Shown: positions 18,944-30,443, numbered from the stretch's first letter. The stretch is DNA of 54,434 bases from Sulfurimonadaceae bacterium (GCA_016744905.1 JADGDM010000004.1:42761-97194); one strand, 5' to 3'. The notes: generated by a model not told the origin, from the sequence alone. Numbers and translations: made by a program.

Positions 18944-19339
18944 CTAGTTGTCTAGAACCATCCAAACATATAACTCTTTGGTTTTTTTATCCGTCCAAGA
19001 GTCTTTTAATGTAGCTGTTACTTTATTACTACTTTCATGCGCAGCTTGATCAACATAAGCTGAACCACGTTCAGTAGTAACAGTCGCTATTGAAGCAGTC
19101 ACGGTGACACCCAACTGACGAGAAAGTCCTTCTAAAGCATACGCTTCAGCAATTTTTTTCTGTCTTGCTGGACCATAAAAGTGATCTTGCGGTGCTACAC
19201 CAACATATCCTTTTGCCCCACTCATACCTGGACTTGAAATCCAAGCAGGCTTAGCGTAAGGGTCAACCACTTCTACTTTACTACCTCCACAGCCGATAAA
19301 CAGCAGTGTTAGTAGGGATACAAAAAAAAGCTTTTTCAA
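18944..19339 (-). CDS. LPP20-like lipoprotein with TTG start
   Basis: A 131-residue lipoprotein with lipobox LFIGC (Cys at residue 17). The pattern PAWISS, YVGVAPQD, then helix AEAYALEGLSRQLGVTV is typical of the LPP20/LPP20-related family of Campylobacterota outer-membrane lipoproteins. The start codon is TTG, directly after the TAA of the preceding gene, so it must depend on coupling. The function of the family is unclear; links to flagellar or envelope assembly exist for some members. Confidence 0.8.
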   Translation of the reverse strand: MKKLFFVSLLTLLFIGCGGSKVEVVDPYAKPAWISSPGMSGAKGYVGVAPQDHFYGPARQKKIAEAYALEGLSRQLGVTVTASIATVTTERGSAYVDQAAHESSNKVTATLKDSWTDKKTKELYVWMVLDN

Positions 19340-19930
19340 TTATTCAAAATCTTTATCTAATTGAGCTTGTGCTTTTTGTGATTGAAATTGTTGCCAAAGT
19401 GCTTCATCATTTTTAAATGAAGTTTTTACTTGTTCTTTAGCTGCAGCCATAACTTCTGCTGTAGGAGAACCCATTAAAACATAAAGTTCACCTGTTACTG
19501 GATCTGGAAATGATTTAAGTTGACGAGAACCTGTTAAAGTTGTTTTTGAAAGTTGTTTAGAAACATCAGTTGCTACACGATCAACTACTTCACTGTCGCC
19601 CACACCAGTTACACGTGTAAAGTTTTCAACTTTATTTTTAACTTGAACTTCAACTTGACGAGCAAGACCATCACGACCATTTGCTTGTGCCAAAGTACGT
19701 TGCATACCTGCACCAGCTTTAGTTGGTGCAGCGATACCTACTGCAACAATAGAATCTTTATAGTATGCAGAGTTACCACATGCCCACTCAGGTGCCAGTT
19801 GACCACTAATTTTACAACGGTCATCAAATTCTGCTTGTTCTGGAGCTACTGGCTCTGCGCCACCACATCCTGCAAATGAGAAAACCATAAGGCCTGCTGC
19901 TGCTGTTGATAATAGATACTTTTTAATCAT
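19340..19930 (-). CDS. LPP20 family lipoprotein
   Basis: A 196-residue lipoprotein: signal peptide with lipobox FAGC (Cys at about residue 22), then CKISGQLAPEWACG, VAVGIA, and a helical ARQVEVQVKN region as in LPP20 proteins. Two further cysteines (near residues 38 and 50) may form a disulfide. Shine-Dalgarno AGGAG precedes the ATG. It is the first gene of a two-gene unit, divergent from the sensor gene at 20100. Likely lipidated and exposed in the periplasm or at the outer membrane. Confidence 0.85.
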   Translation of the reverse strand: MIKKYLLSTAAAGLMVFSFAGCGGAEPVAPEQAEFDDRCKISGQLAPEWACGNSAYYKDSIVAVGIAAPTKAGAGMQRTLAQANGRDGLARQVEVQVKNKVENFTRVTGVGDSEVVDRVATDVSKQLSKTTLTGSRQLKSFPDPVTGELYVLMGSPTAEVMAAAKEQVKTSFKNDEALWQQFQSQKAQAQLDKDFE

Positions 19931-20051
19931 GTATTCACTCCTGTTTTTGTTTGTGAATAATTATAGATTATTAAAACTTAAAGTTCAAAGTAAATAAGAT
20001 AATTCCTTTATTAAATCCTATTTTAGCTTACTTTGGTACATATTTTGCTAT

Positions 20052-20057
20052 TATAAT
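20052..20057 (+). promoter_or_regulatory. -10 box (TATAAT) of the sensor-stator-TolC operon
   Basis: A perfect TATAAT in TGCTATTATAAT lies 42 bases before the first gene; AAGGA follows at 20084. The 169-base divergent region 19931-20099 has no other strong signal. Confidence 0.5.
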
Positions 20058-20099
20058 TCTACAAATAACAGATATCACATTTTAAAGGATTACTCCGCT

Positions 20100-21053
20100 A
20101 TGTTCAGTTTTATTAAATGGTTACAACTCTCTATCTCTAAACTCAAAAGAAATAAAGGTCTCTGGTTCACAACACTCTCTATTGCCTCAACAGCAGGTGT
20201 TTTAATCTCCATGTACACTATTAATATTATGACTTCAAGTGTTGCTGAACAGACTTATCAAGAAGAGCGTCGTGTTGACTTAGCACACTTTGATGCAGTA
20301 CTAACAAGAAACTATGATGAATTAGTCACTACAGGGACTGTTCTTGCCCTACACCCTCAAGTTGTTTCAAATCTGAAAAGTAAAAATTATGAAGCACTTA
20401 ACACCTTAACAGCAGGCATGATTACCTCAATTAACAAAAATATTATTGAGACGGACTTAGACATCAAATATTATGATATTGAGACTAAGATTGAAGAGAG
20501 TGAAAACCACACTTTTGCTGAAATGGTTATGGAAACAAACTATGCACTTAGTGGTCTAATGGTAAACAAAAAGGGTGTTCGTATGGTAGGAATCGTACCA
20601 GTTTTTGAAAATAATGTAACGATTGGGGCACTAGAAGTTTCTCGTAGTATCCACTCGATTAAAGAGCAATTTTTAGACCTTAATAAAGAGTTTGTATTTA
20701 TTATAGATAAACATCAACTGGTATTTTTAGATCTTAAAAGTAAAACAGGTAGATACTTAGACGTGAGTGACGAATATAAGGTTGCTTATAAAAATTATGA
20801 TTCAAATTTTTATATCAACGCTTCACAATTTGATCTTCAAGAGATGATGAGAAATAAATATCATATTGATAAAAAGTTTTTTACTACATACGAAGAAGTA
20901 ACAGATCTCAATGGTCGTATCATTGGTCTTGTCTTGATTGGTGAAGACAGTAACAATGCAAGCAGTTTTGTAAAAATTACCCAAAACATGATCAACAGTG
21001 TTACCACTGTTGCTCTTGGGCTGGTTATCTCTTTAATTCTATTTATGTTCTAA
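20100..21053 (+). CDS. Cache-type periplasmic sensor with no output domain
   Basis: A 317-residue protein with a membrane helix near residues 21-43, a periplasmic domain of about 240 residues, and a C-terminal helix (about 295-317) that ends the protein. The middle has the alpha-beta layout of double Cache sensors like those of chemoreceptors (long helix with HFDAVLTRNYDELV, later GIVPVFENN, GALEVSRS). No kinase, GGDEF or methyl-accepting part follows. It lies 13 bases before a MotA-like gene, so it may gate the stator through membrane contacts. That role is inference; the Cache call rests on pattern only. Confidence 0.7.
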   Translation: MFSFIKWLQLSISKLKRNKGLWFTTLSIASTAGVLISMYTINIMTSSVAEQTYQEERRVDLAHFDAVLTRNYDELVTTGTVLALHPQVVSNLKSKNYEALNTLTAGMITSINKNIIETDLDIKYYDIETKIEESENHTFAEMVMETNYALSGLMVNKKGVRMVGIVPVFENNVTIGALEVSRSIHSIKEQFLDLNKEFVFIIDKHQLVFLDLKSKTGRYLDVSDEYKVAYKNYDSNFYINASQFDLQEMMRNKYHIDKKFFTTYEEVTDLNGRIIGLVLIGEDSNNASSFVKITQNMINSVTTVALGLVISLILFMF

Positions 21054-21066
21054 GGGAAGGGAAAAG

Positions 21067-22326
21067 ATGAAACGTTTAAAAATTATGAAGTCATACATGG
21101 TTTTATGGCTCTTTATCTATTTTCTTGTTTATTCAAATATTGACTCTATTAGTACTTTCTTTATGGCGACACTTACCTTTAATCTGGCCGTAGTTACTAT
21201 TCTTTCTATCGGTATTATTATGATTATGAAAGCCTCTATTTCCTTAGTAATGCTTGCAGGTACTTTTGGAACCATGGCTTATAAAAAAGATAACCTCTCT
21301 TTTTATCTTAAGGGAATTGAAAAGATTATGCCAGCGAATATTGCCCATATGTTTCACTCACGCGCTGAAAAAGGGGTAATGCTTTTTACTGTTGATGAGT
21401 CACGTGCCGTTATTGATTGGATTGATGAGAAGTTTGCCAATCAAAATCGTTATACCAACTACTTTATTGGTACCGTACTGATGATTGGACTACTGGGAAC
21501 ATTCTCAGGTCTACTTATTGCGATTGATGACATGGGTCGTATTATTCTCTCCTTGAGTGGAGACATTGACCTAGCCAAAGTTATCTCTGATTTCTCTGGA
21601 CCACTAGGCGGTATGGCAGTTGGTTTTGGATCTTCTCTTTTTGGAGTTATTGCTGCTATTATTATGGGATTAAAAGGATATATTCTTAATAAAAATCAAG
21701 AGATACTTATTGAAGGTATTGAGGATTGGCTCAAAGGTAGAATCGTTGATGTCGGTGGTGCCGGTGGTGGTTCTGCACCAGCAACAGGTATCCCCGGTGA
21801 AAATGCTCTTCCTGGACACAACAGTAGTTTTATTGAGATTTTTGTAGAGACGATTGGTGGAATGACTGCGCAGATGAAAGATATTGCACAGACAAATGAA
21901 CGTCTTCACTCTATTACTATAGCATCTGTTCAACAAGCCAGAGATGAGCATGATATAACGGTTGGAGTTTTAGAAGATATTCATAAAGCATTACAAAATA
22001 AAAGTGATGACGGGGGTGATATTCCAACACTTATTCAGCGTATCGAAGAGGGTAATAAAATATCTGCAGCTGAGGCATTACATATTGAGCAGATAGAGAG
22101 CGCACAAAAATATAGTGCCAATGCACTGCATAAACAGAACAGCTTACTTAATAATATTCAACATCTACTTGATGACTCGCGTCAAAACACTCAAAGTAAT
22201 ACCAAAAGTGTTTTAGAAAAAATTGATGAAACAACACAGGCTATTGAAAACATTCAAGTAAATGTTTCTAATACTACCTCTCAAGATGAGCCAAAACCTG
22301 GCTTTTTAAACAATATCTTTAAGTAG
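21067..22326 (+). CDS. MotA/TolQ/ExbB-like proton channel subunit
   Basis: A 419-residue membrane protein. Residues of about 9-60 are two hydrophobic helices, about 132-154 hold TM3 with IGLLGTFSGLL, and about 178-203 hold TM4 with GPLGGMAVGFGSSLFGVI, the paired signature of the MotA/TolQ/ExbB fold. Between helices is a cytoplasmic segment. After a Gly/Ala/Pro linker near residue 235, about 150 residues form a coiled-coil-like tail, unusual for ExbB and recalling ZorA-type stators. It is followed nine bases later by a MotB-like partner. The pair should form a PMF-driven motor. Confidence 0.85.
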   Translation: MKRLKIMKSYMVLWLFIYFLVYSNIDSISTFFMATLTFNLAVVTILSIGIIMIMKASISLVMLAGTFGTMAYKKDNLSFYLKGIEKIMPANIAHMFHSRAEKGVMLFTVDESRAVIDWIDEKFANQNRYTNYFIGTVLMIGLLGTFSGLLIAIDDMGRIILSLSGDIDLAKVISDFSGPLGGMAVGFGSSLFGVIAAIIMGLKGYILNKNQEILIEGIEDWLKGRIVDVGGAGGGSAPATGIPGENALPGHNSSFIEIFVETIGGMTAQMKDIAQTNERLHSITIASVQQARDEHDITVGVLEDIHKALQNKSDDGGDIPTLIQRIEEGNKISAAEALHIEQIESAQKYSANALHKQNSLLNNIQHLLDDSRQNTQSNTKSVLEKIDETTQAIENIQVNVSNTTSQDEPKPGFLNNIFK

Positions 22327-22334
22327 TCTAACAG

Positions 22335-23054
22335 ATGGGAAAAAGATGTCCAGAAGAGTTTAATCCATGGCCACCCTTTGTGGATATCTTTGCCTCTGTT
22401 ATTCTCGTCTTAATGTTATTTTTATTGATTACTGTTGTAAACATCGGATACTATGCGCAGTTCAAAGCAAAAACTGCTTACACGGGAAGTACTGAAGATC
22501 CTGATGCAATGGCTTCTGAAGAGTCTTCTAAAATCAAAGTTGATTACTGTGAAAAGCGTGAAGAAGTAGTTAAAATCCAAAAACAAGACGAGATGATTAC
22601 CTTTCATAAAGTCATGGCAAATAAACTTGAAGTAGATGCAAATAGATCACTTTTCAGTGGGGGAAAATCAGCAGGTAATGCTATCGCTTATGCACCCAAT
22701 GCAGATCAAAACAATTTTGATAAACAAAGCGCTGAAGAGCGTGAACGTCAAGTGCTTATTAAGTTTGAGAATAAAGAGATATTTTTAAATACCTCTGTCA
22801 AACAGAACCTTAGACGTTTTGTTAAAAAGTATAAAACACTTAAGGGTGTAGAGTTTCATATCAGTGTGAATGATCCGCAAAGTTTTGTTAGTAAAACACT
22901 GGCACGGCAGGTTTCACTTGGACGCGCACTCAATATTAAAAAACTCATTACCAATATGAGAATACCAAAAACAAGTATCAAATTAAAACTACAAAATGAA
23001 AATCCAATTAGCAGTAAATTTGGTACAGTTATTATAAAGGCGGTTACAAAATGA
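22335..23054 (+). CDS. MotB/TolR-like stator subunit with OmpA-like domain
   Basis: A 239-residue protein with a short cytoplasmic start, then one membrane helix (residues 15-38, FVDIFASVILVLMLFLLI) with Asp17 at the position of the proton-binding Asp of MotB and ExbD. The periplasmic part ends in a degenerate OmpA-like fold (about 130-239: LARQVSLGRALNIKKLI), expected to bind peptidoglycan. With the preceding gene it makes a MotAB-like pair. Its stop overlaps the ATG of the TolC-family gene by four bases (ATGA), so the two are co-translated. Confidence 0.82.
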   Translation: MGKRCPEEFNPWPPFVDIFASVILVLMLFLLITVVNIGYYAQFKAKTAYTGSTEDPDAMASEESSKIKVDYCEKREEVVKIQKQDEMITFHKVMANKLEVDANRSLFSGGKSAGNAIAYAPNADQNNFDKQSAEERERQVLIKFENKEIFLNTSVKQNLRRFVKKYKTLKGVEFHISVNDPQSFVSKTLARQVSLGRALNIKKLITNMRIPKTSIKLKLQNENPISSKFGTVIIKAVTK

Positions 23055-24472
23055 GAAAAAGTTTCATCCTCTCTTTAATAATATGCACATTGCTTGGTGC
23101 AAATGAGTTAGATAACAACTACAGCACTCAACTTGAAAATATAGAAGCAGATCCTCTTTTCACTATAGAGCTAAAAAGTGGTGCTTCTTTATTTGAAGCC
23201 ATTGTCTATTCACTCTCGCATAATGCTAAAATAAAAGCATCTAAACAGCGTGTGTTACAAGAGTTGGCTTCACAAAGTGAAAAAGATGCAGGTCATCTTC
23301 CCACTCTGACTCTTTTTGGAGATGCAGGATATGAAAAACGTTCCAGTGAGACAGATGCCAATGTCAATCCAACTGCACAAGTAACTGAGTACAACTATAA
23401 AAAAACTGAACTCTTTTTTACTTTCACAGAAAATATTTATGCAGGTGGCGCTATAGAAAATGCAGTAAATGAGCAACGCGCTAGAGTTGAAGCCACTATT
23501 TATGATCATCGTAATAATCTTGAGCGCGCCAGTACAGAAGTGATTTCTGCTTATTTTAATGTTATCTACAATCAAATCGCCCTCAAAGTAAATAACAAAA
23601 ATATGAGGAAATTTGAAGAAATTTTAAATATAGTCAGTATCAAAGAAGAAAATGGCGCAGCAACATCAGGTGATGTAAACTTTATCAAGGCCAATGTTGA
23701 AAGTGCGAAAACAGACCGAGTCAAAACAGAAGCGAAACTTTCAAACGCCATCTCACAGTATGAATATCTACTTGGCTTTTATGATGAGACTAATCAACCT
23801 TTCGAGAGTCATGTTGAGATTAATACGGGAGAGTTAAATACTTCTTTAGATTTATTGGAAAAGAACAATGCACTGATATTAAGACAAAAGTCTTACATCA
23901 CATCAGCACAGTTTTCACTCGATGGGACAAAGGCTACTTTTACACCAAAAGTTGACTTCCAAGTTAATGGAGAAGCTAGAAATGAATTTGACAGAGGTTT
24001 AGGTGAGAGAAATAAACTCAATGCCTTGGTTAACTTTAACTATAACCTCTACAATGGAGGAAAAGATCAAGCGCGCTACCAACGTTTTTACGCCAAACTC
24101 AGTGAGCAAAAATTTTTACTTCAAGATAGAAGACGTGAGTTAAAGTTTCAAACGAAGGTTCTTTATAAATCTGTCACCTCTTCACTAGAATCTCTAAAAC
24201 TTACCGCAAGTGAAGTCACTTCAGCACGTAAGGTTGTAGACTCATATTGGATCGCTTTTCAAAATGGAACCCAGAACCTACAATCACTACAATTGGCACA
24301 AGCCAATCTAAATCGTAGTGAACTTGATTTTGTGGAATACAAAAAAAGTATGAGTATTAATTACTTTAAACTGCTACAACTCACAGGAGGGTTACTGCCG
24401 TATCTTGATATAAACTACGCTTCACGACCTTCAGGATTTAAAAATAATGAAGTAAACTTTTGGGAGAACTAG
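23051..24472 (+). CDS. TolC-family outer membrane export channel
   Basis: A 473-residue protein with a Sec signal peptide (1-18) and the two repeated helical hairpins of the TolC/outer-membrane efflux family (FTENIYAGGAIENAVNEQRA and, later, NYNLYNGGKDQARYQ, each with the YxGG strand motif). It forms the outer-membrane exit of type I secretion or efflux systems. It probably works with the LapC/LapB-type genes at 25117-28478, though it sits in the stator operon on the opposite strand. Its end overlaps the end of the convergent beta-barrel gene by four bases. Confidence 0.9.
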   Translation: MRKSFILSLIICTLLGANELDNNYSTQLENIEADPLFTIELKSGASLFEAIVYSLSHNAKIKASKQRVLQELASQSEKDAGHLPTLTLFGDAGYEKRSSETDANVNPTAQVTEYNYKKTELFFTFTENIYAGGAIENAVNEQRARVEATIYDHRNNLERASTEVISAYFNVIYNQIALKVNNKNMRKFEEILNIVSIKEENGAATSGDVNFIKANVESAKTDRVKTEAKLSNAISQYEYLLGFYDETNQPFESHVEINTGELNTSLDLLEKNNALILRQKSYITSAQFSLDGTKATFTPKVDFQVNGEARNEFDRGLGERNKLNALVNFNYNLYNGGKDQARYQRFYAKLSEQKFLLQDRRRELKFQTKVLYKSVTSSLESLKLTASEVTSARKVVDSYWIAFQNGTQNLQSLQLAQANLNRSELDFVEYKKSMSINYFKLLQLTGGLLPYLDINYASRPSGFKNNEVNFWEN

Positions 24473-25107
24473 AAAATATAGTTCAGTCCAAAATAGATCT
24501 GATTTTTGATACTTTGAACATTCTCTTCTGAGCTATCATAAACATTTTCAATGACATCGGTATCACGATACCTATATCCTAATTCAAAAGAAAATCCACT
24601 CTCAATTTCCATATTTATACCAATATTTGGACCATAATTAAAATTTTGTTGATGGAAATTATCACTTAATTTTAATCCCAATCCATTATGATTACTCATG
24701 ATTGTACTGTTTTGAGAATGCATAGTTGTATCTAAATAACCCAATCCAAAACCAATCAATAAAAATATATTCATATCATCATCTTTATAAATACGAGGGA
24801 AATACTCTACATTGGCACTCAACGAATGAGAGTCTAAAGAATATGGATCATATACCTCTTTCTCATAATAGTAACTCATATAAGAGCGTAATGTAAAATA
24901 GCGATAGCCTACTTTTAAAGTAGGTACCAAATTTTTCTCGCTAAGATCATAATGATACACTGTAGTATTACTCGCTGCTACCAAGTATTTTGAACTGTTG
25001 CTCATCACTTGAAGATCAAGACCAACAAAAACACCACTATCTTTAACTTCTACATTCCCAAATGCCAGCGCGCTAAGCAAAGAGAGAGCTAAACCTACTT
25101 TTTTCAT
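24469..25107 (-). CDS. Small outer-membrane beta-barrel protein
   Basis: A 212-residue protein with a signal peptide (cleavage near LAFGN) and alternating beta strands ending in aromatic residues, with terminal Phe (GLNYIF), the C-terminal barrel signature. The pattern fits an eight-stranded porin-like/OMP_b-brl barrel. It lies nine bases after the HlyD-type adaptor, so it is the last gene of the secretion operon. Its role there is unknown; it may stabilise the surface protein or the TolC channel. Confidence 0.8.
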   Translation of the reverse strand: MKKVGLALSLLSALAFGNVEVKDSGVFVGLDLQVMSNSSKYLVAASNTTVYHYDLSEKNLVPTLKVGYRYFTLRSYMSYYYEKEVYDPYSLDSHSLSANVEYFPRIYKDDDMNIFLLIGFGLGYLDTTMHSQNSTIMSNHNGLGLKLSDNFHQQNFNYGPNIGINMEIESGFSFELGYRYRDTDVIENVYDSSEENVQSIKNQIYFGLNYIF

Positions 25108-25116
25108 ATGTTTCCT

Positions 25117-26391
25117 TTACTGCTCAGAGAGTGAGTTTTTAGAGATATCTTTTAATGGTTTCAAAATATACTCTAATATAGTTTTCTTTCCCGTTAAAAT
25201 GTTCACATTTGCAATCATTCCCGGTAATATCGGTTCATCATCAGAAAAAGAACTTTTATTTGTCATGATACGGGCAAGATAAAAACTGTTTCCGCTGTTG
25301 TCTGTAAAACTATCTGGTGATATACCTAAGAGTTTTCCCTCTAAAAGACCATAACGAGAATAATCAAATGCCGTAATCTCTATCGTTGCACTCTGCCCCT
25401 CATAAACCTTTGCTCGATCATTGGTCTTAATATGTGCCTCAATCATTAAAACATCATCAATAGGGGTTATTTCAGCCACCTTGTCACCGGGTTTAATAAT
25501 CCCGCCAACTGTATGAAACTCCAACTTATTAATCAAGCCATTAACAGGACTAATTATAAATTTTCTCACAGAACGATCATCACTGGCTTTCTCTTTTTCT
25601 AAAAGTTTATTAATAGCAATACGTACCTTTGAAATCTCTTGAAACTGTTCAACATGTTTACTCTTTCTATAGGTAAGCATCTTACTGCGCGCTACAGCGA
25701 TATCTTCTTCGATAATGGGAATAGAGTTTTCAATACTCTGTTTTTGTGTGTAGAGGTTCTGTTTTTTAGCCAGTTCTGTAAGGTACTCCTTACGTGAAGC
25801 AGCCCCCTTACGCACCAAATTTTCAGCGATGGTAACATTTTCATTGGCAATGGCCAATTCAAGCGAGAGATTTTGAAACTTATTGCTTCGCTCTGTTAAC
25901 TCATGCTCTTTTTTATTCAACTCATCTTGAAGGAGTGCAAGTTGTGCATTAAAACTCTCAACATCGATTTTAAAAAGACGTTTTTCATTTTCAAGGATAT
26001 GAGGAATCGCCTTATTTAACTCATCAGAAAATTGTATCTTCTGCTTCTCTTTACTCTCTGCTTCCAAACGTATCTCTTGGGCTATAAGGGCATAAAGCTC
26101 GATCTTTTTTTCACGTAGATCTGCTTGAAAAAATGATTGAGACAGTTTATAGATGACATCGCCTTTTACTACACTTTGACCCTCTTTTACCAAAATCTCA
26201 TCGATAATTCCACCCTCAAGATGTTGAATTACCTTGGTCTGAGAAGAGGGAATCACTCTGCCCTCACCACGAACCACTTCATCAATCTCACTCAAACTTG
26301 CCCACGCTATAAACACCACCATAAAAAGCATGATAGGGACAGAGACAAGTCGGTAGTTCCACGAGGTATCATAAGGAATATTTGAGTTCAT
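25117..26391 (-). CDS. HlyD/LapC-type membrane fusion protein of a type I secretion system
   Basis: A 424-residue protein: cytoplasmic N-terminus, one membrane helix (about 15-32), then a beta-barrel/lipoyl region (EGRVIPSSQTKVIQHLEGG, VKEGQSVVKGD), a long coiled-coil hairpin of about 150 residues, and the second lipoyl half (SPVNGLINKLEFHTVGG). It links the ABC transporter to TolC. The ATG overlaps the transporter stop by one base and follows GGAGG. Confidence 0.95.
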   Translation of the reverse strand: MNSNIPYDTSWNYRLVSVPIMLFMVVFIAWASLSEIDEVVRGEGRVIPSSQTKVIQHLEGGIIDEILVKEGQSVVKGDVIYKLSQSFFQADLREKKIELYALIAQEIRLEAESKEKQKIQFSDELNKAIPHILENEKRLFKIDVESFNAQLALLQDELNKKEHELTERSNKFQNLSLELAIANENVTIAENLVRKGAASRKEYLTELAKKQNLYTQKQSIENSIPIIEEDIAVARSKMLTYRKSKHVEQFQEISKVRIAINKLLEKEKASDDRSVRKFIISPVNGLINKLEFHTVGGIIKPGDKVAEITPIDDVLMIEAHIKTNDRAKVYEGQSATIEITAFDYSRYGLLEGKLLGISPDSFTDNSGNSFYLARIMTNKSSFSDDEPILPGMIANVNILTGKKTILEYILKPLKDISKNSLSEQ

Positions 26392-28478
26392 TATTTACCT
26401 CCTTGAAGCATGGCTAATATTTTATTTTTTTCGCCATCGGCCACGATCTTACCATTTTCTATCACTATTACACGATCAACCAACTCTAAAGCTGCAAATC
26501 GGTGTGTAATAACAATCAATGTTTTATCTTCAACCACCCCTTTAAGACGTGCGATGACATTTTGTTCCAAGCCAACATCTAAACCTGTTGTTGGCTCATC
26601 CAAAATTAAAATCTTCGGTTCATGTACCAGTGAGCGCGCTAGGGCTACAAGATTTTTTTGACCCATAGAAAGATACTCTCCATTTTCACCGACATCCAGC
26701 GAATCACCCTGCGCTGATTTTTTAATCAAAGAGTCTAAACCTGTGAGTTCAAGCAGTTTAACCAACTCCTCTTTACTCACCGAGCGTGAAAGTGAGATAT
26801 TGTCTTTAATACTTCCTGCAAACAGATAGGGATCTTGTGGCATCACACCGATACTCTCACGAATTTCTACTGGGTGAATGGTAGAGCTTTCATGTCCATC
26901 AAGATACAGAGATCCAGAACTTGGTAAGTCCAGCGCGCTGAGTAGTCTAAGAATGGTACTTTTACCCGCACCCGTTTGACCGATGATACCGACACGCTCA
27001 CCTGCTTTTATTTTCAGATTGATATTATCAAGTGAAGGATAAGTTGCATTTTTATAATAATAGCTCACCCCTGAAAATTCGATATCGCCTTTTAAATCAC
27101 CAATCCCTATCTCACTTTTTTCAGAACGCTCTTGTGGAAGATGCCAATAATCATTAAGTGAAGTCAAAGCCTCTTTAATCTTTTTAAACTGCAACAAAAC
27201 ACCCGAGAGATTCACAATAGGTACCATCGCACGAGAGGAGAGAATCGTCACGGCAATGAGTCCCCCGATACTTAGATTTTTATTGTGTACTTCATAAACA
27301 CCCACAAAAACAACCATCAAAGTAATGGCTTGAATAATGATGTATGTGGTGTTGGTTGTGAAGTGATTTAATGTAGCAATGCGCTGAGAAAGATGTTCAT
27401 AAAAAGCGACCAATCTTCTCCACTTAAAAAGTCTTTGTGATTGTGCATTTATAAGTTTTAAAGATTCCCGTCCATGAATAGTCTCAATAAGATAGCCATT
27501 TTTACTCTGTGCTTCTTTAAACTGCTCGTGTGCCAAACTCGCCAGTGGATACTGCATGATGAGATTAAAACTCACCATAATAAGACCCGCTATAAAAGGG
27601 ATCATTGCAATCGTCGGAGAGATCCAATAAATCACAAAAAGGGCGATAAAAAAGAAAGGCAAATCCAATATCTGAACCAAGGTTTTTGAGGTAAAAAACT
27701 CTTTAACCTGTTGAAGTTCTTTAAAAAGGTTCGCCTTCGTTCCAGAGAGAAGATGATCATACTGAGTTCGTACATTCATCATACGATTTAAAAGTTTCTC
27801 TTCAAAAAGTGCTGCTATCTTTTTACCACTGTTTTCTAAGATGTAGACCCGTACACTTTTCAGTGCCAGTTCAAAAGCAAAGATAATTAAAACTCCACTG
27901 ACCAAAACAATTAACGTTTCTGTCGCAAAATTTGGGATAACCCTATCGTAAACATTCATCGTAAAAAGAGGGACGGCGAGTGCAAAGATGTTGATAAAAA
28001 GAGAAAGTACACCCACTTCAACATAGGCGCGCCATGTTGCTTTAATGGGTTCAAAAAACCACGAAAGTGTTTTCGAGCGCGCTGAGAGAACACGATCACG
28101 CTCATTTCTAAAAAAGAAGATAACCTCAGAGTACTTTTTCAGCGCACTTTTTTTGATCTCGACATTGGGGTTCTCTTCATCAACATAAAGTACTGCGCCT
28201 TGAGTGCTGATTGATTTTAAAACAGCCACTTCACCATTTTTATCCAACAAAATAAGTGGTAAAAGAAATGACTCTAAGTTAGAGATATCAAGTTGTTCCT
28301 TAGACGCAAAAAGGTTAGTCTCTTGTGCCACAGTAAAAACATCATCAATCCCAAACTCTTCTTCACTCACCCCACTAAGCGCACTAATAATTTCACGTTT
28401 AACATTTCCAAAATAGAAGTGTAGGATGTAGTGGAGGGAGTTAACAAGTGCTAAATTGTTAGGTGAGTTGTTTGGCAT
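26391..28478 (-). CDS. LapB-type type I secretion ABC transporter
   Basis: A 695-residue exporter: a C39-like N-terminal domain (about 1-135) without a catalytic Cys in its first helix, six membrane helices (about 150-440), and an ATPase with Walker A GQTGAGKST (about 499-507), signature LSMGQ (about 602-606), Walker B ILILDEPT and switch His in THR. The dead protease domain is typical of RTX adhesin exporters, which do not cut their cargo. The signature has Met in place of the usual Gly of LSGGQ. It probably exports the giant protein at 30444. Confidence 0.94.
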   Translation of the reverse strand: MPNNSPNNLALVNSLHYILHFYFGNVKREIISALSGVSEEEFGIDDVFTVAQETNLFASKEQLDISNLESFLLPLILLDKNGEVAVLKSISTQGAVLYVDEENPNVEIKKSALKKYSEVIFFFRNERDRVLSARSKTLSWFFEPIKATWRAYVEVGVLSLFINIFALAVPLFTMNVYDRVIPNFATETLIVLVSGVLIIFAFELALKSVRVYILENSGKKIAALFEEKLLNRMMNVRTQYDHLLSGTKANLFKELQQVKEFFTSKTLVQILDLPFFFIALFVIYWISPTIAMIPFIAGLIMVSFNLIMQYPLASLAHEQFKEAQSKNGYLIETIHGRESLKLINAQSQRLFKWRRLVAFYEHLSQRIATLNHFTTNTTYIIIQAITLMVVFVGVYEVHNKNLSIGGLIAVTILSSRAMVPIVNLSGVLLQFKKIKEALTSLNDYWHLPQERSEKSEIGIGDLKGDIEFSGVSYYYKNATYPSLDNINLKIKAGERVGIIGQTGAGKSTILRLLSALDLPSSGSLYLDGHESSTIHPVEIRESIGVMPQDPYLFAGSIKDNISLSRSVSKEELVKLLELTGLDSLIKKSAQGDSLDVGENGEYLSMGQKNLVALARSLVHEPKILILDEPTTGLDVGLEQNVIARLKGVVEDKTLIVITHRFAALELVDRVIVIENGKIVADGEKNKILAMLQGGK

Positions 28479-28511
28479 CTAATCAGTGTCCTTAAAGACT
28501 TTTATTTCTTT

Positions 28512-28517
28512 ATTATA
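28512..28517 (-). promoter_or_regulatory. -10 box and nested inverted repeats upstream of the ABC transporter
   Basis: A minus-strand TATAAT lies 34 bases before the ATG. Around it AAAGACTT (28494) mirrors AAGTCTTT (28542), and AGTGTC (28485) mirrors GACACT (28520). These could be operator arms; no known regulator is recognised. Confidence 0.4.
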
Positions 28518-28554
28518 TCGACACTAGGATAAAGCCTCTTTAAGTCTTTGGTGA

Positions 28555-28914
28555 TTATGTCACTACAAAATCAAGCGAAACAGAATTCACACAGTGACGT
28601 GTACTTTTTGGTGTCATCATCTCACCTCTAAACACATGACCTAAATGTCCGCCACAGTTTTTACAAACAATCTCAAAACGATGACCATCTCTGTCTGTGA
28701 GTTCTTTTACATTATCTTCAATCACGTCATCAAAACTTGGCCAACCCGTACCACTGTCAAATTTTGCACTCGATTTAAAAAGCGGAGTATTACACTGTCT
28801 ACATGTATAAACACCTTCCTCGCTGTGCTTGTTAAATTTTCCTGTAAAAGGCATCTCAGTCCCTTTTTGCAGTATTACATATTTCTCGTTTTCATCTAAT
28901 TTATTATATGCCAT
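28555..28914 (-). CDS. msrB: Peptide methionine-R-sulfoxide reductase
   Basis: A 119-residue single-domain MsrB that reduces methionine-R-sulfoxide in proteins using thioredoxin. Zinc is held by two CxxC motifs (CRQC, CKNC); the catalytic Cys lies in RHCVNSVSLDF. GTGWPSF is the substrate loop. No signal peptide is present, so it is cytoplasmic. It lies between the transporter and the TPR-glycosyltransferase gene, with promoter-like sequence on both sides, so it may be an independent insertion into the cluster rather than part of the system. Confidence 0.96.
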   Translation of the reverse strand: MAYNKLDENEKYVILQKGTEMPFTGKFNKHSEEGVYTCRQCNTPLFKSSAKFDSGTGWPSFDDVIEDNVKELTDRDGHRFEIVCKNCGGHLGHVFRGEMMTPKSTRHCVNSVSLDFVVT

Positions 28915-28936
28915 CTATCATTCCTTTTTTTATAAG

Positions 28937-28955
28937 ATTATAGGGAAGAATTATA
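28937..28955 (-). promoter_or_regulatory. msrB promoter region (two TATAAT boxes)
   Basis: Two minus-strand TATAAT boxes (28937-28942 and 28950-28955) lie before msrB, followed by AAGGAAT. Either could drive msrB and the secretion genes below it. Confidence 0.4.
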
Positions 28956-28991
28956 AAGATTTTATAAACTTATAGAGATACATTATCTTTG

Positions 28992-30443
28992 TCAGACAGC
29001 TATTTTAATTAATGACTTCAGCACTCTCTCATAAACATCACTCCATTCTCCATCACTATACTGCCTAAAAACCTTAGCACTTGGATACCATAGCGAGTCG
29101 TTAGAATCAACACCCCAGCGCCAGTCAGGGACTTTTTGAAGTAGTACCCAAACTTTTGCGCCCATACCACCAGCTAAGTGCGCAACAGAGGTGTCGGCGC
29201 TGATGACGAGGTCTAACTCTTGGATGATTTTGGCGGTGTCGGCGAAGTCATTTATGAGGCTTGAGCAGTCGGTGATTTTATTTGAAACATCCAGCGCGCT
29301 GATCTCTTTGGTGTCTTCACCTACTTGAAGGGAGTAAAACTCGATATTTTCAAGTTCAAGTAGGGGTAAAAAACCTTTAAGCGCGAGTACTTTTTTAGCG
29401 TACGAATCACCTGTATTACTCGCACCCCAGACCAAACCTACTCTATATTTACTCTTTTTAGTGCGCTTGGGTAAAAGTATCTTTTGACTCGGTGCTTTTA
29501 AATAGGGGTAGAGTTTACGCACACGTTCCAGCGCGCTGTCACAGACAAGTGGTAGACTCATCATCGCTACTTGATAATCAAATGCACCGTTTTCATCTCC
29601 ACGCGTTATCACCTTATCGATGCCATCAACACTTTCAAAAAGACGCTCCAGTCCAGTGCGGACATTTACGACTACCTCAGCACCCCGAAGAGAAAGTACT
29701 TTGGCATAGCGAATCACCATCAAAGAGTCGCCAAAACCTTGCTCTGAATGGATCAAAATAGTTTTGCCTTTGAGTTCTTGATCTACATATCTTGGTGCGC
29801 TAAAAATCTCTTGATACGTAGAGATGTGCCCCTGCATCTCCTCTTTTCTAAAACGCCACTCGTACTCTTTCCATCCTGCTTCAAACTCATCTGTTTGAAG
29901 GAGAACTGTAGAGAGGTCAAAATGTGCATTGACATGGTTAGGTTCTAATTCTATTGCTTTTTTATACATCACTTTTGCACGGTTGTAACGGCCTAAGTTT
30001 TTGTAGGCTGAACCACAGTTTGCGTAATGGTTGGCAGAATTAGGGTCAAGGTTAATCGCTTTAAGATGGAAGTAGACTGCTTGTTCATATTCATAGCTTT
30101 TGTTCAGTGCATTTCCAATGTTGGTATAGGCACCTGCATAAGAGGGTTTTAGCTCTATCGCCTTTTGATACAGCGCAATAGCGCGCTTGTAGTTTTTAAA
30201 CTTAGAGTGAATCGCCCCCAAGTTTGAGTAAGCCTCTGCGTAGTCTGGCTTACGTTTGATCGCCTCTTCAAAAAAAGTAGCCGAGTCTTTGTAGCGCGCC
30301 AGCTTATAAAAAACGACGGCGCAAGAGTTGTAACTCATAAAGTTATCAGGCTCTTCTTTTATTGATTCAAGATAAAGTTCTACGGCCTTATTTAGATTGC
30401 CTGTTTTTTCTGCGTTTTGTGCTTGTTTTAGTAATTCATTCAT
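28992..30443 (-). CDS. TPR protein fused to a GT9-like glycosyltransferase
   Basis: A 483-residue cytoplasmic protein with no signal peptide. Residues of about 1-205 hold five to six TPR repeats (AEAYSNLGAIH, AGAYTNIGNAL). About 225-480 form a GT-B-like domain: GKTILIHSEQGFGDSL and SADTSVAHLAGGMG resemble the donor site of heptosyltransferase-like GT9 enzymes. TPR-linked transferases often bind long protein acceptors. Its ATG follows directly on the giant gene's stop (TAG then ATG), so it is translated after it. Role proposed: glycosylate the giant protein before export (inference). Confidence 0.85.
   Translation of the reverse strand: MNELLKQAQNAEKTGNLNKAVELYLESIKEEPDNFMSYNSCAVVFYKLARYKDSATFFEEAIKRKPDYAEAYSNLGAIHSKFKNYKRAIALYQKAIELKPSYAGAYTNIGNALNKSYEYEQAVYFHLKAINLDPNSANHYANCGSAYKNLGRYNRAKVMYKKAIELEPNHVNAHFDLSTVLLQTDEFEAGWKEYEWRFRKEEMQGHISTYQEIFSAPRYVDQELKGKTILIHSEQGFGDSLMVIRYAKVLSLRGAEVVVNVRTGLERLFESVDGIDKVITRGDENGAFDYQVAMMSLPLVCDSALERVRKLYPYLKAPSQKILLPKRTKKSKYRVGLVWGASNTGDSYAKKVLALKGFLPLLELENIEFYSLQVGEDTKEISALDVSNKITDCSSLINDFADTAKIIQELDLVISADTSVAHLAGGMGAKVWVLLQKVPDWRWGVDSNDSLWYPSAKVFRQYSDGEWSDVYERVLKSLIKIAV

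Follow-up and report, generated by a model that had tools for sequence, protein, structure and literature searches.

A SiiAB-type cassette at giant RTX adhesin loci of Campylobacterota and its probable part in adhesin retention and release

What is a stator-like membrane channel doing beside the type I exporter of a giant adhesin? The question is posed by a 54,434-nucleotide stretch of a Sulfurimonadaceae genome (GCA_016744905.1 JADGDM010000004.1:42761-97194, hereafter the window), in which four genes on the plus strand form a tight operon with spacings of 13, 8, and -4 bp: a Cache-domain membrane protein of 317 aa (20100-21053), a TolQ/ExbB/ZorA-type channel subunit of 419 aa (21067-22326), a MotB/SiiA-like protein of 239 aa (22335-23054), and a TolC-family outer-membrane channel of 473 aa (23051-24472; OEP 1.6e-41, TIGR01844 1.4e-44). 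An earlier, sequence-only reading had described a stator-type channel, a MotB-like protein with a membrane Asp, TolC, and a Cache sensor without output, and open reading frames (ORFs), alignments, and structure models agree with it. The TolC start does overlap the MotB-like stop, by 4 bp, but the proposed fusion to TolC is one of overlapping genes and not of proteins. As that reading also had it, the operon faces a LapB/LapC-type exporter and a giant RTX gene, all on the opposite strand: an LssB/LapB-type ATP-binding cassette (ABC) transporter of type I secretion (26391-28478; TIGR03375 715 bits, cut-off 693), a LapC-like HlyD-type periplasmic adaptor (25117-26391; TIGR01843 2e-106), and the adhesin gene itself. 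We consider the cassette probably a SiiAB-type accessory motor that serves a giant-adhesin type I secretion system (T1SS), and through which the adhesin would be retained or released in dependence on proton-motive force (PMF) and on a signal sensed by the Cache protein.

The channel protein is divided into a transmembrane (TM) core (residues 1-226), a cytoplasmic coiled-coil tail (252-403), and a C-terminal tip, GFLNNIFK. It falls under the curated cut-off of Pfam PF01618 (11.7 versus 22.9 bits), and searching the genome with PF01618 does not recover it; at E<=0.1 the family matches 44 of 47 channel relatives, best 1.7e-6. Because sequence-only PDB searches with the channel and MotB-like proteins and their profiles gave no significant match, both folds were modelled with AlphaFold2 (AF2), as single chains. 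The channel model has a mean predicted local distance difference test score (pLDDT) of 77, and its best 50 Foldseek rows are all ExbB, TolQ, ZorA, or PomA (probability 1.00, TMt 0.45-0.63, best E 1.3e-3). Against ExbB it gives a VIA Z of 12.6 over 182 residues at a root-mean-square deviation (rmsd) of 3.7, and the first unrelated helical entry scores 10.3. An hhalign comparison with TolQ/ExbB (E 8.4e-6, probability 83%) places channel residues T145 and S190 on the TolQ polar pore residues T145 and T178, and both are invariant in 47 of 47 channel proteins. The models predict a subunit fold of the MotA/TolQ/ExbB superfamily with TM2 and TM3 as pore helices. The genome also has separate MotA/TolQ/ExbB-type genes; with these present elsewhere and no flagellar genes recognised beside the cassette, we rejected a flagellar stator. 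As a separate observation, rod-bearing channels (about 500-855 aa, plus the window's 419 aa) terminate in a motif like GFFSKLFK, at 22291-22326 in the window. By pattern it ends 17 of 49 channels, with two near matches in addition, and none of 269 control ORFs, and it is missing from most short-tailed channels; it is possible that it serves as a docking tip.

The partner consists of a TM helix (residues 12-46), a disordered linker (49-125), and a peptidoglycan-binding-type domain (130-239). A standard library scan assigned it to no significant family. In the alignment of 47 MotB-like proteins the membrane Asp17 is invariant, as is Arg197 in the peptidoglycan-binding-type domain, which may or may not be a counterpart of the SiiA arginines R162/R167 for peptidoglycan binding. 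The periplasmic domain is modelled mostly at pLDDT >90, and the closest known structure is SiiA of Salmonella (6qvp; Z 13.0, rmsd 2.2, 102 residues), followed by a match at Z 11.0 and then by OmpA, Pal, and MotB around 10-11; that no ZorB structure stands among the best 50 matches listed is uninformative. The model suggests a MotB/SiiA-type protein with one Asp-bearing TM helix, a linker, and a peptidoglycan-binding fold. At the level of single chains, the structure models agree with the sequence-only reading and do not refute it: they give a stator-type subunit fold for the channel and a peptidoglycan-binding-type fold for the partner, which carries an invariant membrane Asp.

The Cache protein has a short cytoplasmic N-terminus, a first TM helix (residues 20-46), a periplasmic dCache_3-like domain, and a second TM helix (296-317) that is also its C-terminal end. 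dCache_3 is matched in 29 of 45 relatives (best 4.4e-10), and all end identically at the last TM residue, with no output domain. Since the same module heads full-length proteins of 650-900 aa elsewhere in stator genomes, the Cache protein looks like a receptor that has lost its former output. Its C-terminal helix, which reads VTTVALGLVVSLLLFMF across the family, is similar to TM helix 3 of TolQ/ExbB, and PF01618 matches this helix in several relatives, best 9.8e-5; it may pack into the channel.

How constant is this set of genes, and what does it travel with? The comparison covered 20 relatives in the family and 47 loci found among 84,980 species genomes. All 47 relatives are Campylobacterota (Sulfurimonas, Sulfuricurvum, Sulfurospirillum, Arcobacteraceae, and other Campylobacterales), and the channel and MotB-like genes are kept in 47/47, the Cache gene in 46/47, and TolC on the same contig in 41/47. 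Channel distances track those of Cache, MotB, TolC, HlyD, and LssB (Mantel r 0.79-0.92), correlations that fit shared inheritance and are no proof of interaction. The relatives show three main layouts. The first is the window's own. In the second, the exporter and cassette are joined by a longer TolC, which carries a SPOR domain in the one TolC scanned, a degenerate GGDEF-EAL (LapD-like) protein, a protein of about 165-290 aa (the ones read resemble lipoproteins), and a Sel1 protein; in the third, the giant RTX gene comes straight after motB, and TolC stands apart. The GGDEF-EAL protein (NF045673 1.5e-31, motifs degenerate) lies in the stator operon at loci L063-L065, L075, L076, L085, L089, L090, L093-L098, and L100. 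The sequence-only reading had proposed that the stator genes should recur with type I secretion genes, and among the 24 loci with at least 8 kb of flank on each side, exporter and/or RTX genes lie within 10 kb of the stator in 21. A plasmid search added one further stator locus. The complete locus is also present on an Arcobacter plasmid (L102, CP146529.1), where the giant gene measures 25.7 kb and the Cache, channel, and MotB-like genes are all annotated as hypothetical.

The closest association is with one end of the adhesin. Inside the window lie the C-terminal 7,996 residues of the giant RTX protein (30444-54434, minus strand; 48 RTX nonapeptide matches). An estimate of 8,000 residues from the sequence alone was right for this portion but short for the protein: the gene starts 2.7 kb past the window end, near window-equivalent position 57126, beyond a short stretch of Ns, so that it has about 8,890 codons. 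Its N-terminal domain of approximately 110 residues (G000:C24:99536-99889; L164:9528-9887 on the minus strand, window-equivalent about 56767-57126) is common to the giant adhesins at stator loci, and Pfam has no family for it. At G479:C1:1436172 this domain stands at the start of a 13,090-codon open frame, and several others exceed 10,000 codons. The channel is encoded in 29 of 397 Campylobacterota genomes (303-398 bits, against 21 bits for the next match), and a profile of the adhesin N-terminal domain finds 29 genomes in an identical list, a match with a chance probability of 1.1e-44 if genomes were independent; in a check of 78 genomes, the weakest true match of this profile was 118 bits and the best elsewhere 14. 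The MotB-like partner is present in 25 of 25 channel genomes in a search of 347, with one weak match elsewhere, and the full-length Cache protein in 28 of the 29, being split over contig ends in the last. The LssB-class exporter is far commoner, over cut-off in 138 of the 397 genomes, of which 25 belong to the 29 and 113 lack the stator. Given this difference and the identical lists, what the cassette accompanies is a particular class of adhesin end and not type I export as such.

Type I substrates exit C-terminus first, and their N-terminal part can stay in the conduit, as is established for LapA-type adhesins. The N-terminal domain is therefore the end of the adhesin that stays in the envelope, and its one-to-one link with the motor favors PMF-dependent retention or release over PMF-driven export. 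A precedent exists in SiiA and SiiB of Salmonella pathogenicity island 4 (SPI-4), a proton channel serving the giant adhesin SiiE: surface retention of SiiE is PMF-dependent, lowered by uncoupling and raised by acidification, and its N-terminal beta and coiled-coil parts are needed for retention or release, deletions there altering retention (PMC6272769). The structural match of the partner to SiiA, the one-to-one link to the N-terminal domain, and the Sii precedent together make retention or release the best reading. We infer a mechanism in which the channel and its MotB-like partner would assemble as a peptidoglycan-anchored, proton-driven 5:2 complex, the exporter would thread the adhesin out C-terminus first, and the N-terminal domain would remain in the periplasm and TolC conduit as a plug. 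The motor could then act on this plug, or on the exporter through TolC and HlyD or through the cytoplasmic rod, spending PMF to hold or free the adhesin. The Cache protein, via its membrane helices, may switch the complex on or off in response to a periplasmic small molecule, to which the degenerate GGDEF-EAL protein could add a cyclic di-GMP (c-di-GMP) input in many relatives. A bolder version has a rotary proton motor holding a surface fiber of roughly 9,000 residues by its periplasmic end and, when a periplasmic ligand calls for it, actively reeling the fiber in, turning it, or letting it go. This is in our view quite doubtful; if true, adhesion here would be motor-powered and sensor-gated instead of depending on a passive plug cut by a protease.

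LapG is the releaser of LapA-type adhesins, and its distribution bears on the same question. It is missing from 6 of the 29 stator genomes versus 1 of 49 exporter-only genomes (p 0.009), a shortfall that fits LapG-independent release. The window's own genome has two LapG-type genes (PF06035), both on contigs other than that of the stator locus, and at least two further LssB-class exporters (G000, contigs C66, C37, C118, and C73 for these genes together), which makes the stator system one among several export systems of the giant-adhesin type in this genome.

Several observations weigh against a role in retention and release. LapG is also present in 23 of the 29 stator genomes, where release may be proteolytic. 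Three of the 24 well-flanked loci (L057, L085, and L097) have no exporter within 10 kb, and the genome of L057, a metagenome-assembled genome, has no exporter over cut-off at all. Co-occurrence is not independent of descent, the genes being mostly linked and the 29 genomes falling in about 13 genera, and an adhesin-domain profile built, as this one was, from stator loci could overlook remote forms elsewhere. Finally, the likeness to SiiAB draws on the structure of the partner and on gene context.

Of the alternatives, the one that survives best is that no work is done: the complex would be a PMF-sensing anchor between peptidoglycan and TolC or the adhesin, one that a change in PMF or in the Cache ligand would open. 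The peptidoglycan-binding-type fold of the partner, the SPOR domain on TolC in one layout, the Cache module without output, and the drop in SiiE retention when PMF is lost (PMC6272769) would all suit such an anchor. We think it rather unlikely, since the conserved polar residues of the pore, together with the Asp, suggest genuine ion flow, which 5:2 complexes of this fold are known to convert to movement. A second alternative is that PMF adds work to ATP-driven export, with the motor helping to push or pull a very long adhesin outward, much as the sequence-only reading had proposed. Adhesins at stator loci are indeed very long, with single ORFs reaching the 13,090 codons given above, the exporter's TolC sits in the stator operon, and binding of SiiB to the ATPase SiiF has been reported (PMC12607715). 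However, siiA/siiB mutants still export SiiE, which is found in the supernatant, and it is invasion of polarized cells that falls (PMC12607715); the 113 genomes with LssB-type exporters and no stator count against a general need for such help, and the tight link is to the N-terminal end of the adhesin, which is retained or the last to leave. An export motor therefore seems unlikely, and PMF-driven outward movement as originally proposed was not borne out. Third, the motor could turn or reel the anchored adhesin at the surface to produce traction or a gliding-like movement, in the manner of GldLM/SprB or AglRQS; it belongs to the same superfamily as the stators of gliding systems, and its link is to the end of the adhesin on the cell side, but neither track nor baseplate genes are recognised at the loci, and the SiiAB precedent is about retention, which makes this very improbable. 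That the cassette is a Zorya-like anti-phage motor lying by chance beside a secretion locus, an identity raised by PADLOC matches (ZorA3 models to 21 of 21 channel proteins, best 4.6e-17; ZorB1 models to 5 of 21 partners) and by long cytoplasmic rods like those of ZorA, is scarcely credible and was dropped on its partner genes, since what constantly recurs with the cassette is TolC, exporter, and adhesin genes, the ZorA3 match of the window protein is limited to pore residues 130-203, the window partner matches no ZorB model, and the Zorya effectors (helicase, nuclease, DUF3348/DUF2894; ZorC/D, ZorE, ZorF/G) are not among the annotated neighbors at 18944-30443 (lipoproteins, TolC, beta-barrel, HlyD, ABC, and TPR proteins), which lay outside the PADLOC scan.

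The remaining genes of the locus complete its layout. The genes listed in the sequence-only reading are present, but it left out a small outer-membrane beta-barrel protein of 212 aa (24469-25107, minus strand; OMP_b-brl 1.3e-5; homologues at L058, L059, L061, and L101) that separates TolC from HlyD and keeps this position in several relatives. Between the convergent TolC and barrel genes lies a stem-loop (24458-24493; -11.9 kcal/mol, z -2.8), perhaps their shared terminator. MsrB, named from sequence, and a TPR protein with weak similarity to glycosyltransferase family 9 (28992-30443, minus strand; TPR_11 3e-30, Glyco_transf_9 0.012) lie between the ABC exporter and the giant gene. The TPR gene adjoins the giant gene and recurs at many stator loci, its pairwise distances correlate with those of the channel (Mantel r 0.93, 16 loci), and its product may modify the adhesin.

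Among known systems, TolQR, ExbBD, MotAB, and PomAB share the subunit fold and pore residues of the channel, but no TolA/TonB or flagellar partners are recognised for the cassette, and the window channel lies under the Pfam cut-off for the family. ZorAB is similar in that ZorA is the nearest PADLOC model to the pore core and in having a cytoplasmic rod and a peptidoglycan-binding partner; the cassette differs in its link to secretion and adhesin genes. With the LapA/LapBCE system it shares an LssB/LapB-class ABC exporter, HlyD, TolC, and a giant RTX adhesin, and in one layout only the degenerate GGDEF-EAL protein resembles LapD; unlike LapA/LapD/LapG, the cassette has no adjoining LapG and has a proton-channel motor instead. 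Giant adhesins may thus be held by at least two strategies, a plug cut by LapG and a motor run by PMF.

The likeness to SiiAB extends to a Mot/Exb/Tol-type channel, a MotB-like partner with one TM helix, a linker, and a peptidoglycan-binding domain, and a setting among T1SS genes and a giant, Ca-binding adhesin (SiiCDF and SiiE); as in SiiE, the adhesin N-terminus has an inferred beta part and, in one layout, a likely coiled coil. Wille et al. reportedly described in 2014 that TM2 and TM3 of SiiB resemble ExbB/TolQ and that an Asp in the TM helix of SiiA is essential. The expectation that the full gene set lacked a known parallel had missed this precedent. SiiA binds peptidoglycan, and how SiiA and SiiB use PMF in controlling SiiE has been described as unclear (PMC12607715); SiiAB is listed among PMF motors (PMC12204202), and in 2017 SiiA and SiiB were called 'unique' accessory proteins of the SPI4-encoded T1SS (PMC5466336). 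Our literature search, which did not reach subscription journals, found no paper on such loci in Campylobacterota or outside Salmonella. The cassette would represent a second, diverse family of such motors, in another phylum, mostly in environmental bacteria, and with an added sensor; its exact co-occurrence with the adhesin N-terminal domain names that domain as the candidate target of the motor, and the question of the SiiAB mechanism becomes a specific one about Asp17, this domain, and the Cache ligand. It differs from SiiAB in its conserved Cache protein, in a TolC gene that overlaps the MotB-like gene, in a variable cytoplasmic rod on the channel, in an adhesin that is an RTX protein of the LssB/LapB exporter class, and at some loci in a degenerate GGDEF-EAL protein, a Sel1 protein, and a SPOR-bearing TolC. 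A SiiAB-type motor at a giant-adhesin T1SS was already known; what the Campylobacterota loci add is another host phylum, a Cache protein as partner, an operon shared with TolC, an exact match in occurrence with an end domain of the adhesin, and, in one layout, a LapD-like receptor.

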